Source: a virus
Length of the DNA: 24,912 nucleotides
Reading direction: 5' to 3' (one strand)
IMG/VR virus record: IMGVR_UViG_3300032134_000018
Coordinates: 1-24,912 of that record
The notes below the pieces were generated by a model. That model was given only the letters and a program-made list of their open reading frames with translations. It did not search any database and was not told the DNA's origin. This document shows positions 587 to 20,729 of this stretch, in pieces. The number at the start of each line of letters is the position of its first letter. Positions within the stretch are counted from its first letter, which is position 1. The translations under genes and the position numbers were made by a program.

Positions 587-1276
587 ATGAGGTTGAAAAT
601 TAGGAAGTGGGACCAGTTCCAGCACTACTCGAAGCGGCGGCCGCCGTGGATCAAGCTCCACAGGCAGCTACTCGAAAACCGCCACTGGGCAGAGCTCTCG
701 GCGAACTCAGCTAAGCTCCTCGTAGAGTGCTGGCTTCTTGCTAGCGAAGAGTCGGGAGGCGTCCTTTCCGGCGATGTGGTCACCGATTTAGCGTGGCGGC
801 TTCACCGCACGGCGAACGATTTGGTGCCGGCGCTGCAAGAGCTTGCAGACGCTGGGTTTATCGACGTTGATTACAGCGACAAAGAGGGCGACGCGGGCGA
901 AGCGCTAGCAGAGCGCTACTCTAGAGTAGAGAAGAGAAAAGGAAAAAAGAGCAAACGTGCGGTGCGAAAATACTCGGAGGCATTCGAGGAAGTGTGGAAG
1001 ATCCACGCGAGAGGTCCGAAGACCAAAGCCGGCGATGCATACAAGAAGGCGGTGAGCAACGGCGTCACCCACGACGTGATCGTGGAGAAGCTGACCGGGT
1101 ACGTGGCAGCAGAGCTCCGGCCAGACGACAACCCGCCGTTCAAGGGGCAACATCTTTTCCGCTGGCTGAACGACGGCCGGTGGGAGGAGGAGTTCGAGAC
1201 CAAGAGAGATGGCAGCTACCAGCCGTCGTCAGTCTTCGACTGGTTCCCGCCGAGTTTTGAGGAGGTGGTCAAGTGA
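587..1276 (+). CDS. Phage replisome organiser / helicase-loader-like protein
   Basis: This 229-residue protein probably opens the phage origin or delivers the adjacent helicase to DNA. Residues ~8-95 (PPWIKLHRQLL, then W..L, LLVECWLLAS, ALQELADAGFI) look like the N-terminal winged-helix domain of phage replication initiators of the DnaD/replisome-organiser type. A basic linker (RVEKRKGKKSKRAVRKYSE, ~112-131) follows. The C-terminal part (EEVWKIHARGPKTKAGDAYKK ... HLFRWLNDGRWEEEF) resembles the C-terminal segment often seen in these proteins, ending in a Leu/Asn/Trp-rich motif. The start is set by the excellent ribosome site at 574-584. Its stop overlaps the helicase start (GTGA), a pairing typical of loader plus helicase. 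I assign the family from motif shape only, so the exact biochemical role is inference. Confidence 0.75.
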   Translation: MRLKIRKWDQFQHYSKRRPPWIKLHRQLLENRHWAELSANSAKLLVECWLLASEESGGVLSGDVVTDLAWRLHRTANDLVPALQELADAGFIDVDYSDKEGDAGEALAERYSRVEKRKGKKSKRAVRKYSEAFEEVWKIHARGPKTKAGDAYKKAVSNGVTHDVIVEKLTGYVAAELRPDDNPPFKGQHLFRWLNDGRWEEEFETKRDGSYQPSSVFDWFPPSFEEVVK

Positions 1277-2181
1277 TCGGCGCGGGTGAGCTAACCGACC
1301 TCAACTCGCCGGAGTTTATGAAGGCGTTCGCCGAGGAGCAGCAGCAGGAGACGGTTGCGGTTCCAACGCCATTCGAGGCGCTGAATCGAGCTCTCCGCGA
1401 TGCTGGTGGAGGCGTCGGGTTAGCCCCGTCGTGGATGTGCATCATCGGGGCGAACCCCGGCCATACGAAATCAGTGCTTGCCCTCAACTTCGCGGCGAAA
1501 GCTATCGAGCACGGACAGGCGGTGGGCTTCGCGAACTTGGAGATGTCTAAGACTCAGGTCGCCTCGCGGTTCTACGCTATTCAGTCCGGGTTGCCGGTGG
1601 CGGCTATGGAGCGGGGCACGTTCTCGCCTCGCATCTTCGAGACGGTAGAGGCGTCGAGGGAGCTCCCGGCGATATACACGCCGAGGACGGTCAGCACCAA
1701 CTACACGGACGTTGTGGATTTTGTCGCTGAGTGCCACGGGGAGAGAGGCGTGTCGTTCTTCGTGGTGGATTACGTTCAGCTCTGCGCGATAGCAGGCGCC
1801 AGCGGCAGCGACAGCGTCGTCGAGGCGGTGAGCAACGTGACGCTCGATCTCCGTGAGTGGGCGGTGAACAACAACGCGATCATTCTGCTGCTCAGCCAGT
1901 TCAACCGGACGACCTCGGCTAATTACAAAGACACGCCCCGAAGCCAGGGCCTCTACGGGTCGATGGTGCTGGAATCGAGCGCAGACGTTTGCCTGTTGGT
2001 CGATCACTCGAAGGTGATCCGTTCGCCAGAGGGATCCGGCAGCTTTCGGTCGTATTTGGTCTTGGACAAGAACCGGCATGGACCCTCCCAATTTGCCATA
2101 CCATTCGAGGTTTCGATGGGCACCTTACGAGCCCGCCAGGGTATGCCAGATGAGATAGATCAATACTGGCCGAAGCCGTGA
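1273..2181 (+). CDS. DnaB-like replicative helicase (SF4, RecA-fold domain only)
   Basis: This 302-residue protein has the core of a DnaB-family ring helicase that unwinds DNA at the fork using ATP. Motifs in order: Walker A GANPGHTKS (59-67), the conserved glutamate region NLEMS (E90), Walker B VVDYVQL (D166), the LLSQFNR motif (Q209), YGSMVLESSAD matching the DnaB S-G-x-x-x-E-x-x-AD region, and DKNRHGP near the C-terminus, matching the DnaB K-N-R-x-G-P arginine-finger region. The DnaB N-terminal primase-interaction domain is missing, as in many phage homologues. The Walker A has threonine where glycine normally precedes the lysine. The GTG start overlaps the upstream stop as GTGA, with GGAGGTGG just upstream. 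RecA-like ATPases are the alternative, but DYVQL, SQFNR and KNRHGP together favour DnaB. Confidence 0.88.
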   Translation: MIGAGELTDLNSPEFMKAFAEEQQQETVAVPTPFEALNRALRDAGGGVGLAPSWMCIIGANPGHTKSVLALNFAAKAIEHGQAVGFANLEMSKTQVASRFYAIQSGLPVAAMERGTFSPRIFETVEASRELPAIYTPRTVSTNYTDVVDFVAECHGERGVSFFVVDYVQLCAIAGASGSDSVVEAVSNVTLDLREWAVNNNAIILLLSQFNRTTSANYKDTPRSQGLYGSMVLESSADVCLLVDHSKVIRSPEGSGSFRSYLVLDKNRHGPSQFAIPFEVSMGTLRARQGMPDEIDQYWPKP

Positions 2182-2751: not shown

Positions 2752-2783
2752 GTTAGAATTTGACCTACACAAGGAGACACAGC

Positions 2784-3137
2784 ATGAAGCTGGAGATCAA
2801 GATCACGGGCCAGGCAGACGACCCAAGGGCCATCGCTCAGGTAGCAATCAATGCGGTGGCAGGTGCAGGCATGGAAGGCGGCAGAGCCAACGTCAGCTAC
2901 GGCAACGTCCAGAGCTCAGACCCCATCTTCCCCGAAGAGGTGCAGGTAGCGGAGGAAGAGGTGGAGGTAGCCGTAGAGGAGGAGCAGGCGTCGGTCATGG
3001 CGGTAAGCTTCGCGAGCTCCAAGGCTGCACTGCTTGCGGATCAGCTCAACGTCCCAGCGTCGGCTTTCGTTGGCGTCGTACCCAGTGGCGTGAGGGGCTA
3101 CACCATCGGCGACGTGAAGGCGCTTGCGCGTGGCTAG
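2784..3137 (+). CDS. Small protein with acidic linker and PSBD/E3-binding-like C-terminal domain
   Basis: This 117-residue protein starts at ATG 2784, set by AAGGAGAC 5 bases upstream. It has three parts: an N-terminal region (1-47, MKLEIKITGQ...), a very acidic Glu/Val linker (50-68, VQVAEEEVEVAVEEE), and a C-terminal segment (~75-115) with the pattern FASSKAALLADQLNV ... VPSGVRGYTIGDVKALA. That pattern matches the peripheral subunit-binding (E3-binding) fold of 2-oxoacid dehydrogenase E2 enzymes, whose usual form is S-P-x-x-R-x-x-A-x-x-L-G-V ... V-x-G-T-G-x-x-G-R-I-x-x-x-D-V. Related small folds occur as DNA-binding or protein-docking modules in phages and in Lsr2. It sits just upstream of the small terminase, overlapping it. 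The domain match is by eye; its role is unknown. Confidence 0.6.
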   Translation: MKLEIKITGQADDPRAIAQVAINAVAGAGMEGGRANVSYGNVQSSDPIFPEEVQVAEEEVEVAVEEEQASVMAVSFASSKAALLADQLNVPASAFVGVVPSGVRGYTIGDVKALARG

Positions 3138-3627
3138 CGTGTCTTCTGCCGTCGTTGGGGCGAGTTCGGGTGCTTCGGGAGAGGCCTCGGGCGCCTCCGA
3201 GCCCGCCGAAACGACCACGCGGGGGGACGCAACCCCTTGCAGCGTAACGACTTACGTGACCGAGGACGGTATCGAGATGATACCACAGGCGCACGGCGGG
3301 GCGCTACAGCGCGGCAACCCCGGCAACAGCGGGGGCTCGGGCGTCACCAGGCAGCTCCGAGAGGCCTTCCGTGGCGACCTAGAGACAGCCAGGCTGCGCC
3401 TGGTGGAGATCCTCGCAGACGACGACGCAGACCCCAAGGACCTCATAGCCATATTCGACAAGCTGGCGAAGTACAGCGTAGGTGAGAAGCGTGAGGGGGT
3501 CACGGTAGACCACGAGCTGCTCAATGAGCTCTTCGAGCCCGTGCAGCGCTGTGTGCGCGACGCCGTCCAGCTCTCGGAGATACGGGAGCGGTGGCTCGAC
3601 GCGCTAGGCCAGCGGCTCAAGCTGTGA
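3130..3627 (+). CDS. terS: Probable small terminase subunit
   Basis: Probable DNA-recognition subunit of the packaging motor, placed directly before the large terminase, where this gene is normally found. Residues ~55-70 carry HGGALQRGNPGNSGGSG, a Gly/Asn-rich motif typical of a class of phage small-terminase-like proteins, followed by helices (TRQLREAFRGDLETARLRLV, DLIAIFDKLAKYSVGEKR) of the kind that form DNA-binding and oligomer parts. The first ~45 residues are low-complexity Ser/Ala/Gly. The start is uncertain: GTG 3130 overlaps the upstream stop by 8 bp and has AAGG upstream; GTG 3139 and ATG 3276 (just before the conserved motif) are alternatives. The length of 165 residues suits the family. 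The assignment rests on motif and position. Confidence 0.6.
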   Translation: MASVSSAVVGASSGASGEASGASEPAETTTRGDATPCSVTTYVTEDGIEMIPQAHGGALQRGNPGNSGGSGVTRQLREAFRGDLETARLRLVEILADDDADPKDLIAIFDKLAKYSVGEKREGVTVDHELLNELFEPVQRCVRDAVQLSEIRERWLDALGQRLKL

Positions 3628-3654
3628 GTGGCGACCGCACGCACGATGCAAGAG

Positions 3655-3807
3655 TATGCAGTATCGGGGGCCGAGAGGGCATCCTAGTTAACGTAATATA
3701 CCTTATACGAAGTGCTTTTTGGCTTAGGTACGCCACTTCGTTGATTATGCACCCGCGTCCTGGGCGAAGGTCGCCATATGCACCATCGGGCGCTCTATGA
3801 TTATGCA
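3655..3807 (+). repeat. Cluster of four TATGCA words
   Basis: TATGCA occurs at 3655-3660, 3746-3751, 3777-3782 and 3802-3807. Two copies are extended to TGATTATGCA (3742-3751 and 3798-3807) and two to TATGCACC (3746-3753 and 3777-3784). At this base composition about 0.02 copies are expected by chance in 150 bp. All four are in the same direction. They may be binding sites for the small terminase or a regulator (inference). Confidence 0.55.
3707..3741. repeat. 8-bp inverted repeat with 19-base spacer
   Basis: ACGAAGTG (3707-3714) and CACTTCGT (3734-3741) are exact reverse complements. The spacer begins with CTTTTT and contains GGC/GCC, so an RNA stem-loop is possible, but the T-run is in the loop rather than after the stem, which does not fit a terminator. 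An operator is the other reading. Confidence 0.4.
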
Positions 3808-3926
3808 GAAAGCCGAGGAGCGAAAGTCGGAATCGGACAACCAAAAAAACGAGTTTTGTGATGCGTAAAATCATGGACCAACAGAAATCCTAAAATTTTT
3901 CGGTATCAAAAAAAGGAGACAGTTTT

Positions 3927-5615
3927 TTGCAGGCGTTCTCAGCCACGTCATTAGCCCCTGACACGTTACGCGACCGTGCCGCCCTTCAGGAGTACGAGGG
4001 GTTCGGCAGGCGCTCGGGTGCTCGGGCTCACACGGAGTACCAGAAGGATCCTATGGGGTGGATCCGCGACAAGCTCGGGGTGCCGGAGCACACGCTACGC
4101 TGGAGCCTAAACGACGGCTACGGAGCTCACGAGTGGGACGGCACCGTGGACCCTCTCGCCGAGGTGCTTGAGGCGCTTGCCAGGTGGGAGGACGTGGGGG
4201 TTGAGAGCGGCACGGGCACAGGCAAGACGTTCCTCGGGGCAGCGGTTGTGCTGTGGTTTCTGGCGTGTTGGGAGGACTCGATCGTCGTCACGGCGGCGCC
4301 GAAGCTCGCGCAGCTCACGAAGCACATCTGGAAGGAGATAGGTGTGTTGTGGCCGCGTTTCCTGGAGCACTTCCCTGAAGCTGAGCTGTTGGCATCTGGC
4401 GCTATCCATATGAGGCCGGGCATCGAGGAACGGGAGTCGTGGGCGGCTACGGCGTTCGGTTGCGGGGTGGGCGCAGCCGAGGCGTCAGCTACGAAGGCAC
4501 AGGGCTGGCACGCGGAGCATATGCTGATTTTGACGGAGGAGACGCCAGGCGTTCACCCGGCGATCATGGTGGCCTTCGAGAACACGTGTTCGGCGCCTCA
4601 CAACCTCCGGCTCGCGTTCGGCAACCCTGACTACGAGGAAGACGAGCTCCACCAGTTCTGCCTGCAACCTCATGTGGCCCACGTCCGTGTCAGCGCGTTG
4701 GACCATCCCAACGTCGTTGGCGACGAGTCAGGCGTCGTCCCTGGTGCTGTCAGTAGGGAGGCGATCGATCGCCGCAAGGGGCTCTACGCGCACATCCCGG
4801 CGATGTACCAGTCGAGGGTACGGGGTATCAGTCCCAAGCAGGCTACAGGCGTCGCTCTGGGCTTCGTGGAGGCCGACCACATGGAGCATACGTCGGTGGA
4901 GACGCTGATCGACCAGAAGTGGCCGATGTTCGCCGGCATTGATTTCGGCGCATGGCGTTTCAGCTTCGTGCTGGCAGCCAGTGACCGTGCGAAGCGGCTG
5001 CACATCTTGGACGAGCTCTTCAGCCAGCAGGAGACGCTGACTGCGCGTGCGGAGGCGATCCATTATCTCTTGGACAAGCACGACGCTCCGGCGAGGACCC
5101 CGATCTGGGGGGACAGCGCCAACCCACAGGACATCATGGAGATCAACGCGGCATTCAGGAAGCTGGGCAGTCCCTACGTGGTCCGGGCGGTAGCCAAGAC
5201 CTCTGCGGAGGGCAAGAGCTTCCGTGCTGCCTGCGTCGAGCGCCTGAACGACCTACTCGGCCGGCGAGCGCTGCTGTTCGACCGGGATCTCGGCAAGGGG
5301 CAGGAGTGGTACAAGGGCGCGTCTGTCGCGAGTCAGGGGCGCATGGTGAAGGGCTCACGGCTGCTGTGGGAGATCCGCAACTGGCGCTACCCTGACCGGC
5401 AGAGCGGGCGAGCCCAGCACCAGGACGCTGACGACGACACTGCGGATGGCGCTGACGCGATAGCGGCCTTACGCTATCTGGTGATGAGCTGGTGGCGTGC
5501 TGCGAGCTTCACTGCACCGCCTAAGCGTGCTGTACGCAACCGCGACACCGGGCTAGAAGATCGCCTAGAGCGTATCGCGAAGGAAAACCGTCAACTAACG
5601 AGGCATCCATTTTGA
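3927..5615 (+). CDS. terL: Large terminase subunit (packaging ATPase and nuclease)
   Basis: This 562-residue motor protein pumps DNA into the capsid through the portal and cuts the concatemer. The ATPase shows Walker A SGTGTGKT (94-101), a Walker-B-like strand LILTEE (200-205) with Thr where Asp is usual, and a coupling motif LAFGNP at about 230. The RNase-H-like nuclease shows its acidic residues in order: D339 in FAGIDFG, D396 in IWGDSAN and D510 in ADGADAIAALRYL. The start is a TTG at 3927, chosen because AAAGGAGAC lies 8 bases upstream and no better start fits; this rare start may limit expression. It is preceded by the A/T-rich gap and overlaps the next gene by 4 bp (TTGA). The full length and both domains are intact. 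Confidence 0.93.
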   Translation: MQAFSATSLAPDTLRDRAALQEYEGFGRRSGARAHTEYQKDPMGWIRDKLGVPEHTLRWSLNDGYGAHEWDGTVDPLAEVLEALARWEDVGVESGTGTGKTFLGAAVVLWFLACWEDSIVVTAAPKLAQLTKHIWKEIGVLWPRFLEHFPEAELLASGAIHMRPGIEERESWAATAFGCGVGAAEASATKAQGWHAEHMLILTEETPGVHPAIMVAFENTCSAPHNLRLAFGNPDYEEDELHQFCLQPHVAHVRVSALDHPNVVGDESGVVPGAVSREAIDRRKGLYAHIPAMYQSRVRGISPKQATGVALGFVEADHMEHTSVETLIDQKWPMFAGIDFGAWRFSFVLAASDRAKRLHILDELFSQQETLTARAEAIHYLLDKHDAPARTPIWGDSANPQDIMEINAAFRKLGSPYVVRAVAKTSAEGKSFRAACVERLNDLLGRRALLFDRDLGKGQEWYKGASVASQGRMVKGSRLLWEIRNWRYPDRQSGRAQHQDADDDTADGADAIAALRYLVMSWWRAASFTAPPKRAVRNRDTGLEDRLERIAKENRQLTRHPF

Positions 5616-18619: not shown

Positions 18620-19060
18620 ATGAAAAACGGAGCAGTCAGGATTCGGAACAAGGATCTTTCAGGGGCGCAGGCCGCGCTACGGGAGTGCGGCAACACGCGG
18701 ATCCCGATGGCAGTGGCGTTGCGTATGGTCTCGGTTCAGCGGCTTATCAAAGACCGCATCGACGACGTGAACGAGATCAATAGCACCCTGGTCGAGCGCT
18801 ACGGTGAGCCGGGCGAGGGCGAAGAGAAGGCGACCCAAGTGAACTCCGAGATGCCCGGCTGGTTCGCGTATGTGGCCGCGTTCAACGATCTAATGAACGA
18901 GGAGCTGGAGGTCTCAGGGCAATTCGTTCTATACCAGGACGGCGACAAGGTCGGCTGGGGCAAGGACGAGATGAACGGCCTATCGCTAACGCCGAATGCG
19001 ATTATGGACATGGCAGCCCTTCTCCGCATCGAGGACCTCGCCGACGAGGCACCCGAGTAG
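18620..19060 (+). CDS. Small phage protein, DUF1617-like pattern
   Basis: This 146-residue protein starts at ATG 18620, where CGGAGGATT gives a strong ribosome site 6 bases upstream. An ATG at 18578 in the same frame overlaps the previous stop (ATGA) and would add 14 residues. The pattern VRIRNKDLSGAQAALRECGN, then IPMAVALRMVSVQRLIKDRI, then VNEINSTLVERYGE resembles small phage proteins of the DUF1617 kind, which have unknown function. The C-terminal half is acidic (NDLMNEELEVSGQFVLYQDG). The family suggestion comes from pattern memory and is tentative. Confidence 0.6.
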   Translation: MKNGAVRIRNKDLSGAQAALRECGNTRIPMAVALRMVSVQRLIKDRIDDVNEINSTLVERYGEPGEGEEKATQVNSEMPGWFAYVAAFNDLMNEELEVSGQFVLYQDGDKVGWGKDEMNGLSLTPNAIMDMAALLRIEDLADEAPE

Positions 19061-19064
19061 TCCA

Positions 19065-20729
19065 ATGGCGCAGATGATCAGGGAGCAGCAGCTCACGTTC
19101 GCAAGGGGGATGAACGATACCGCTGCGCCTATCGAGTATCAGGAGGACGAGTGCGAGCTCCTCCTGAACGGCCGGGTCTCATTCGACGGACAGACGGTCC
19201 AGAGGCGTGGCGGCAGCGAGAAGACGCACGCCAGCGCCCTCAACAGTGGAGGTGACGGCTACGGAGGCATCGAGTACTACACGGCCGCCGGCCAGCAGCA
19301 GCTCGTCGTGTTTATGGGCGACAAGATGTACTACTCGACCAACGAAGGCGCTACTTGGACAAACGCAACCGGCGCCACGGGCCTGACCGAGGCCGCCTGG
19401 GTTCTGGTCATCATGCGTGAGGGGGCGGCCAACGTGCTGTGCTGTGCGAACGGCGGCACGAATAGCTACCAGTGGAACGGCACAACATGGGCGGTGATCT
19501 CGAACATCCCGAACAACGTCAAGTATTTGGCGGTCCACGGTAACCGCCTCTGGGCGTCTGGTCACAGCGGCATCGACGTGGTGGCCTCCAAGGTCGGCGA
19601 CATCGACACATGGAGCACACCTGACGGGCTGACGGTCAAGGCGCAGACCCACGATGGCGACCCGAAGATCACGGGGCTCTTCCAACTCGGCAGCGTGCTG
19701 ATGGTCTTCAAGAGCGAGAGCACCGGCTACATCGAGGGCTACGGGTTCACCACGCTTGAGGTAGAGGCGGGCTCACGCGGCATCTCCCGGTCGGTCGGCT
19801 GCATGGCTCCGCGCTCGGTCCAGGCCGTAGGCAACCAGGGCGTGTGCTGGCTGTCCAAGCGAGGCCTGGAGCACTATCAGGTGGGTGGGGTGGTCACGCC
19901 CGTCTCCCGCTCGATCCAGAAGTTCATCGACGGGATCAACTGGTCTCAGATCAGAAGCACGCCGTCATCGGTTACTGCCCTCTGGTGGCCTCAGAAGCAC
20001 GAGTACTGGTGCAGCCTGCCAGTGGCTTCCAGCAACAACGACTACATGATAGGATACCGCCCTCCGACAGAGGAGCGCCCTCCGGCGCTCATGCTGCACA
20101 AGTACGCCGCGACCGAGGACGACACGCTATTCATAGGCGGCAGCGGCTATCTGGACTTTAGCACCACGTCCAACCGTGATCAGGGAGACACGCTGTTCGG
20201 CTACCTGACCACAGCGCTGACCGGCGGGCAGTACATGACGATCAACGCGGACGGCCATTTGGAGTTCGCCACTGCGCCACACGGTGACGCGACCCTGTTC
20301 ATTGCGGAGATATCTGGCGCAGAGCTGACCACAACCCCAATGAGCTGTGGCTACGATGGTTTCGTGCGGCAGCTTGAGAAGGGCGACGCGGACAACCAGG
20401 CTCCGGGCGGCGGTGGCGGTGAGAGCATCTCGTTCAAGCTCATCACGCGCCCGTTCTTCTTCGGCCAGCCTATGCGTGACAAGCGGGCTCGTGTGGTGCG
20501 CGTATCGTCCCAGCAACCGGACACCAGCACCGTGACCGTCAACGTCAAAGCAGACGGCGTGGACGGGGCGCGTCACTCGATCACCTACGGCATAGCACCC
20601 AAGCCAGTGGTCAAGAAGGTTCGCGTCGGCACCAAGGGCAACGCCCAATCCGTGGAGCTCACCTCGACAGACAACGTGAAGATCGGCTCGATCGAGCTCG
20701 CTGCCGGCGTGTTCGAGGAGGCTTGGTAG
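19065..20729 (+). CDS. Beta-propeller tail protein (P22 gp10-like packaged-DNA stabilisation / tail hub)
   Basis: This 554-residue protein is predicted to plug or extend the portal-adaptor channel after packaging. ATG 19065 is chosen: it lies just after the previous stop and gives MAQMIREQQLTFARGMND, a typical beginning; an upstream ATG at 18996 would lie inside the previous gene. The protein consists of repeating beta blades with Gly/Trp/Tyr patterns: QQQLVVFMGDKMYYSTNEGA, NSYQWNGTTWAVISNIPNNV, VKYLAVHGNRLWASGHSG, ITGLFQLGSVLMVFKSEST, GVCWLSKRGLEHYQVGG, RPPALMLHKY. These match the class of short-tail phage propeller proteins. The C-terminal ~110 residues form a separate beta domain. There is no strong ribosome site. 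Confidence 0.65.
   Translation: MAQMIREQQLTFARGMNDTAAPIEYQEDECELLLNGRVSFDGQTVQRRGGSEKTHASALNSGGDGYGGIEYYTAAGQQQLVVFMGDKMYYSTNEGATWTNATGATGLTEAAWVLVIMREGAANVLCCANGGTNSYQWNGTTWAVISNIPNNVKYLAVHGNRLWASGHSGIDVVASKVGDIDTWSTPDGLTVKAQTHDGDPKITGLFQLGSVLMVFKSESTGYIEGYGFTTLEVEAGSRGISRSVGCMAPRSVQAVGNQGVCWLSKRGLEHYQVGGVVTPVSRSIQKFIDGINWSQIRSTPSSVTALWWPQKHEYWCSLPVASSNNDYMIGYRPPTEERPPALMLHKYAATEDDTLFIGGSGYLDFSTTSNRDQGDTLFGYLTTALTGGQYMTINADGHLEFATAPHGDATLFIAEISGAELTTTPMSCGYDGFVRQLEKGDADNQAPGGGGGESISFKLITRPFFFGQPMRDKRARVVRVSSQQPDTSTVTVNVKADGVDGARHSITYGIAPKPVVKKVRVGTKGNAQSVELTSTDNVKIGSIELAAGVFEEAW

Follow-up and report, generated by a model that had tools for sequence, protein, structure and literature searches.

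A predicted PSBD-like domain on an acidic tether in a small phage protein encoded beside the terminase genes

We identified a gene for a 117-residue acidic protein in IMGVR_UViG_3300032134_000018, a 24.9-kb virus record whose 24,912 nucleotides constitute the window analyzed here. Its carriers form a rare group among environmental phages. The C-terminal residues of its product are predicted, by sequence profiles and structure modeling, to form a mini-domain with the fold of the peripheral subunit-binding domain (PSBD) of 2-oxoacid dehydrogenase E2 proteins, and not an Lsr2-like fold. Bacteria use the PSBD fold for docking enzymes onto the pyruvate dehydrogenase complex, and PSBDs are known chiefly as the E1/E3 docks of central-metabolism complexes. 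With about even confidence, we propose that the phage protein is a tethered protein-docking adaptor, accessory to the phage, that would bind a partner other than E3.

The PSBD-like gene and its neighborhood

The gene runs from an ATG at 2784 to a TAG stop at 3135-3137, in the order replication initiation protein, DnaB-like helicase, two small ORFs, PSBD-like gene, probable small terminase, and large terminase (Table 1); in the window, the latter is followed by a weak portal match and then by a major head protein. We consider the ORF a real gene because homologs were present in 10 further IMG/VR contigs, plus one that was near-identical, and because dS was well above dN. Specifically, the comparison of the window with the L005 relative gave an overall dS of 0.89 and dN of 0.17, and dS exceeded dN for both the N-terminal and the C-terminal halves across the six pairs compared, the sole exception among all regions being the 19-codon linker in the pair L009 and L011. 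These patterns point to conservation under purifying selection.

The downstream neighbor likely begins at GTG 3130, giving an 8-base overlap with the PSBD-like gene, or else at TTG 3124. It had one PHROG match with E < 0.1, to a family of unknown function (E 5.7e-4), and its version in L016 had no PHROG match at E <= 0.01. We nevertheless assign it as the likely small terminase subunit, because of its position before the terminase large subunit and its NPGNSGGG motif, a motif of terminase small subunits. The initial annotation, which had placed the gene beside the small terminase, is therefore likely to be right by position and motif.

Table 1. Positions of the features discussed, numbered along the window.
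Feature	Position	Strand	Basis
Replication initiation protein	587..1276	+	phrog_26426, E 5.4e-16
DnaB-like helicase	1273..2181	+	phrog_19, E 1.5e-33
Likely ribosome-binding site AAGGAG	2771..2776	+	7 bases before ATG 2784, read from sequence
CDS of the 117-residue PSBD-like protein	2784..3137	+	Translation; homologs in 10 further contigs; dS > dN
N-terminal domain, residues 1-46	2784..2921	+	AlphaFold2 strand-helix-strand, pLDDT about 50-64
Acidic, probably disordered tether, residues 47-71	2922..2996	+	pLDDT < 50 at residues 52-70; charge table
Predicted PSBD-like domain, residues 72-117	2997..3134	+	pLDDT 92; Foldseek match 1w4i; hhalign with shuffles
Probable small terminase subunit	3130..3627	+	ORF list, weak PHROG match of unknown function, position
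Terminase large subunit	3927..5615	+	phrog_2, E 2.5e-12

Two kinds of repeat were seen near the terminase genes. In the non-coding stretch that separates the large terminase gene from the probable small one, at 3707-3741, an 8-base inverted repeat (ACGAAGTG/CACTTCGT) surrounds GGCTTAGGTACGCC; the core was exact in L013 (at 1853) and L018 (at 1896), and had 2 mismatches in L016 (at 5593), where the PSBD-like gene lies on one side of it and the small terminase gene on the other. It is possibly a regulatory or packaging site. Additionally, TATGCA(G) repeats were located ahead of the large terminase gene at 3652-3808 of the window and at 2052-2230 of L005, with two copies of TGATTATGCA in the former and three of (T/A)TTATGCAG in the latter; these could be binding sites for the small terminase. 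Farther along the window, a 577-residue ORF at 18996-20729 resembled a PHROG annotated as an amidase involved in lysis (E 5.1e-6).

Presence and absence among relatives

Relatives were gathered via the large terminase, which yielded 19 contigs at at least 72% identity and three that were more distant. Six of the 19 began too near the terminase to be informative (L004, L008, L010, L012, L014, and L015), leaving 13 informative close relatives in which the contig extended at least 1 kb upstream of the terminase. The PSBD-like gene was present in 11 of these 13, on the same strand and in an unchanged neighborhood just upstream of the packaging genes (among the 11, the L007 copy is cut by the contig end and L003 is near-identical to the window). 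The remaining two, L058 and L059, carry the helicase, the pair of small ORFs, and the small and large terminase genes but lack the PSBD-like gene, which we consider accessory because of this absence despite the same gene order. The gene was not found in the distant relatives L020, L065, and L066.

Searches of viral contigs retrieved 11 loci with the whole family, 11 with its C-terminal half, and 8 with its N-terminal half, and every one of these loci came from one shared set of contigs. Six-frame profile searches of the window and of the retrieved loci showed no second copy, and the 14 whole relative records searched comprised three with the single known copy each and 11 without any. Scans of genome contigs for a host, using either the protein family or the large terminase as query, found no relative.

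Two variants of the locus were observed. A member in L013 (1593-1828) has no N-terminal domain, proceeding from its ATG through a short stretch directly to the PSBD-like domain in fewer than 80 residues; because the PSBD-like part alone is kept there, we regard the C-terminal domain as the core of the protein. In L009 and L011, and in these only, an extra ORF (1954-2373 and 3658-4077, respectively) separates the PSBD-like gene from that of the small terminase; it encodes about 140 residues and includes hydrophobic stretches.

The genomic position raises the alternative of a dedicated accessory terminase subunit, which would bind the small subunit and regulate packaging through its acidic tether. 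The gene adjoins and overlaps that of the probable small terminase in the window, and the neighborhood is kept in 11 of 13 informative relatives; in contrast, L058 and L059 possess small and large terminase genes without a PSBD-like gene, and the extra ORF separates the PSBD-like gene from the small terminase in L009 and L011. We consider such a dedicated role unlikely, and the absence from L058 and L059 argues against a required role in packaging.

Predicted fold of the C-terminal domain

Residues 72-117 are the best conserved part of the protein, with 14 of 47 columns invariant over the ten rows of the family alignment, few of which are independent (L005, L006, and L007 barely differ from one another, and L016 barely differs from L018). 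AlphaFold2 modeling of this domain alone, from ten relatives, gave a pLDDT of 92.2, with five agreeing models at 89-92. The predicted order over the last 46 residues is a helix, a short turn-helix, a loop, and a helix, the helices spanning about residues 79-87, 92-95, and 108-116 of the protein (8-16, 21-24, and 37-45 of the isolated domain).

A Foldseek search of 350,542 PDB chains, allowing E up to 10, returned a single match, 1w4i, which is a PSBD from an E2 protein (TM 0.67 by query, 2.3 A, 28% identity, and a weak E of 1.6). VIA-align to 1w4i gave 2.1 A over 42 residues at Z 3.5, a range in which small helical arrangements may coincide. With the full-length model, those listed matches that were confined to the C-terminal domain were PSBD entries (2coo, 1w4j, 2eq9, 9a5h, 1w4i, and 9h2i), at Z values of 2.9-3.6; such values are modest, in keeping with a length of 40 residues, and insufficient alone. 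A search of BFVD structures with the C-terminal model gave weak matches, the best being R4THZ4 (TM 0.60, E 2.0). The structure model thus predicts the two-helix PSBD-like fold, and the result that the initial annotation had named as contrary to its proposal, the lack of such a fold, was absent.

Sequence profiles led to the same family. PSBDs were in the top few matches of the PDB-chain profile searches (E 0.54 with the whole family and 0.14 with the C-terminal half), and Pfam E3_binding (PF02817) was matched at E 0.11-0.13 in two of nine members, with 13 bits in one against a gathering cut-off of 23.7 bits; no PF02817 match was found for the window record. When the phage family was aligned by hhalign to nine aligned PSBDs, the score was 26.0 with a probability of 81, and none of 300 column shuffles of the family reached it (maximum 14.3). 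We take these shuffles as the evidence because the E-values from pairwise hhalign lack a database calibration. As a control, PSBDs were compared with nine Lsr2 DNA-binding domains and gave a probability of 91, so the method does see the relatedness of those two. The phage family against Lsr2 scored 10.05, with a probability of 0.5, which is inside the shuffle range (maximum 16.5 in 200 shuffles), and there was no match to PF23359 (Lsr2) in nine members. The earlier suggestion that the last ~40 residues follow the PSBD pattern was borne out by the column-shuffle control, with which structure prediction agrees, and of the two folds proposed for comparison, PSBD and the Lsr2 C-terminal domain, sequence profiles favor the first and not the second.

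It might be argued that the two short helices look like a PSBD only by chance, given the weak E-values of the unguided searches (Foldseek 1.6, PDB profile 0.14 and 0.54, and Pfam 0.11, below the cut-off). Against this, independent sequence and structure searches converge on the PSBD, 0 of 300 column shuffles came near the real score, and a Gly and an Asp are conserved at PSBD positions, making mere coincidence very unlikely.

Other candidate matches for the protein were rejected. The Topoisomerase VI A / Spo11 Toprim family was the best Pfam match of the window protein (E 0.036) and reached E 0.005 in one of nine members; like BurrH repeats, it showed a short, one-sided likeness to 'LADxLxxPA' or 'GKRGF', and neither was recovered by the structure search.

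N-terminal domain and acidic tether

The initial annotation also described a small N-terminal domain ahead of an acidic Glu/Val linker. The AlphaFold2 model supports such a domain, with a strand at residues 2-8, a helix at 14-27, and a strand at 32-39, all at low confidence, and this part is conserved across the family (MKxEIKITG...YSYG). No convincing PDB or Pfam match was found for it. HMG-CoA reductase, cadherin, LeuA, and acetyltransferase were each proposed by one member, without agreement, and were rejected. The best VIA matches were Cas4-type ACE1 (Z 4.3) and 4-oxalocrotonate tautomerase (about 3.4), which we likewise set aside, the likeness being limited to the common strand-helix-strand arrangement. 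We gave the N-terminal domain no family because these matches share a common topology and the model is of low confidence.

The tether has a net charge of -9 in the window and of -3 to -7 in the relatives (ten rows in all), while its sequence and length vary and negative charge alone is kept. Hence the acidity of the linker is present in the window and maintained in relatives, unlike its Glu/Val sequence and length.

The putative docking face

Residues of the Bst E2 PSBD were paired with those of the phage family by profile alignment, the sequence having been checked against 1ebd_C. In this protein, R135, R139, and R156 are the basic E3/E1-contact residues. The Arg135 site is Ala82 and the Arg139 site Asp86 in all ten rows, and the Lys136 site corresponds to position 83, which is Arg in eight rows, Lys in one, and Leu in the window. 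Gly105 and Asp110 are invariant (10/10) at the sites of Bst Gly155, in the loop, and Asp161, in helix 2, both of which are also invariant in the nine PSBDs. Arg156, an Arg in 9/9 PSBDs, has no phage counterpart, Gly105 being followed by Phe or Tyr. Within the E2 PSBD set, R135 is missing in two of nine and R139 in five of nine, and in none is there an acid at R139. The net charge of helix 1 is -2 to +1 in the phage family versus 0 to +3 in the PSBD set.

These residues bear on whether the protein docks onto host E3 (dihydrolipoyl dehydrogenase) or E1, perturbing the pyruvate or 2-oxoglutarate dehydrogenase complex during infection. The fold itself speaks for this, since its known job is E1/E3 binding, which, according to PMC6270654, uses PSBD surfaces rich in basic residues. 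PMC9974300 describes charged side chains of helix 1 that recruit E3 as an electrostatic zipper. Set against that zipper and that basic surface are the phage helix 1, at -2 to +1, Ala in place of R135, Asp in place of R139, and the missing counterpart of R156. Judged by its sequence, the phage protein appears not to be an E3-binder, and E3 or E1 docking is highly improbable. That every row has Asp where an Arg would contact E3 suggests that the phage domain turns this face toward some other partner.

A further alternative is a DNA-binding nucleoid-type protein like Lsr2, in which a linker would join a small dimerization domain to a two-helix DNA-binding domain of the PSBD superfamily. Lsr2 proteins have about 110-120 residues, in which a linker connects the N-terminal domain to a two-helix C-terminal domain that shares this broad fold, and the size and domain order of the phage protein match this architecture. 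Moreover, PSBD and Lsr2 profiles match mutually, an SGKRG-type basic loop is present in most members, and the gene sits between replication and packaging genes. However, the family scores only 10 against the Lsr2 profile, within shuffles, and the second arginine of the RGR loop would fall on Phe or Tyr. The loop variants are SGKRGF, SGKKGF/Y, SGVRGY, and SGICGF, such that basic residues are not conserved across members, and the loop of L013 has none. The pI is 4.2-4.8 in all ten rows, and the linker is acidic, versus basic in Lsr2. We therefore regard an Lsr2-like protein as distinctly unlikely. Regarding the docking role initially proposed, onto a host protein or DNA, E3 docking and Lsr2-type DNA docking are both disfavored by the lost or charge-reversed residues, the unconserved RGR loop, and the acidity, while docking onto some other partner would be retained.

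As a separate observation, a weak match to the Lsr2 DNA-binding domain (E 0.044) was seen for the last residues of phrog_4873, a phage Ku-like family for DNA end binding.

A proposed tethered adaptor for a partner other than E3

In the proposed adaptor, the N-terminal module, perhaps an oligomerization unit, would carry the flexible acidic tether, and the tether would present the PSBD-fold mini-domain, which may then dock onto a protein partner. The L013 variant suggests that the N-terminal module is not essential. The E3-gripping face, formed in E2 enzymes by helix-1 arginines, would have been remade in the phage domain, and the Ala and Asp at the arginine sites in every relative point away from E3 and toward another protein, which may bear a basic patch. 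Given the location of the gene at the junction of replication and packaging genes and its overlap with the probable small terminase, a phage replication or packaging protein would be the likeliest partner, a tentative choice that we hold with less than even confidence.

A more specific scenario, which we view as rather doubtful, is that the phage took the PSBD fold from 2-oxoacid dehydrogenase complexes and gave its docking face the opposite charge, creating a tethered viral adaptor for a non-E3 partner that acts in the switch from replication to packaging. Under this scenario, the adaptor would capture either a host protein or one of the phage proteins for replication or packaging. If true, a free viral PSBD-like domain with replaced docking arginines would make the fold a reusable protein-docking unit, and the invariant Asp offers one residue at which the partner can be probed.

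Comparison with known systems

Neither the window protein nor the L016 C-terminal domain had a relative among 50,697 phage records. Two E2 PSBD queries matched 17 and 13 of these records, and the annotated matches were all in E2 genes. Four of the unannotated matches (L040, L044, L045, and L046) were translated; these four read as linkers and PSBDs of the E2 type, and one lies next to an E3 gene. No match to either E2 PSBD query was found in PHROGs, and no free-standing phage PSBD-like protein was found in the open-licence papers searched with a few phrases. While the fold is known, a free-standing phage protein with a PSBD-like domain looks undescribed in the collections searched. Separately, the phage-labelled records OR850096, CAKLQF020000016, MT835496, OR846616, and OR847274 (L040, L041, L044, L045, and L046, respectively) carry host-type E2 genes, adjoined in MT835496 by an E3 gene, and on this account look like bacterial DNA.

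Relative to Lsr2 proteins, including the phage Lsr2-like DNA-bridging proteins (PF23359, phrog_1223), the phage protein has no profile similarity above shuffles, lacks the conserved RGR loop, and is strongly acidic. With the PSBD of 2-oxoacid dehydrogenase E2 (PF02817), the phage domain shares the predicted two-helix mini-fold with a turn-helix between, the invariant loop Gly and second-helix Asp, and a length of ~40 residues on a flexible linker. It differs in a loop of altered length, an extra conserved MxVxF strand before helix 1, the replacement by Ala or Asp, or loss, of the E3-contact arginines, and a score below the Pfam cut-off. Finally, unlike E2 and E3BP proteins, the 117-residue phage protein has no lipoyl or acyltransferase domain by Pfam, and its linker is acidic, whereas the three inter-domain linkers of E. 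coli E2p described in PMC6270654 are Ala-Pro rich.
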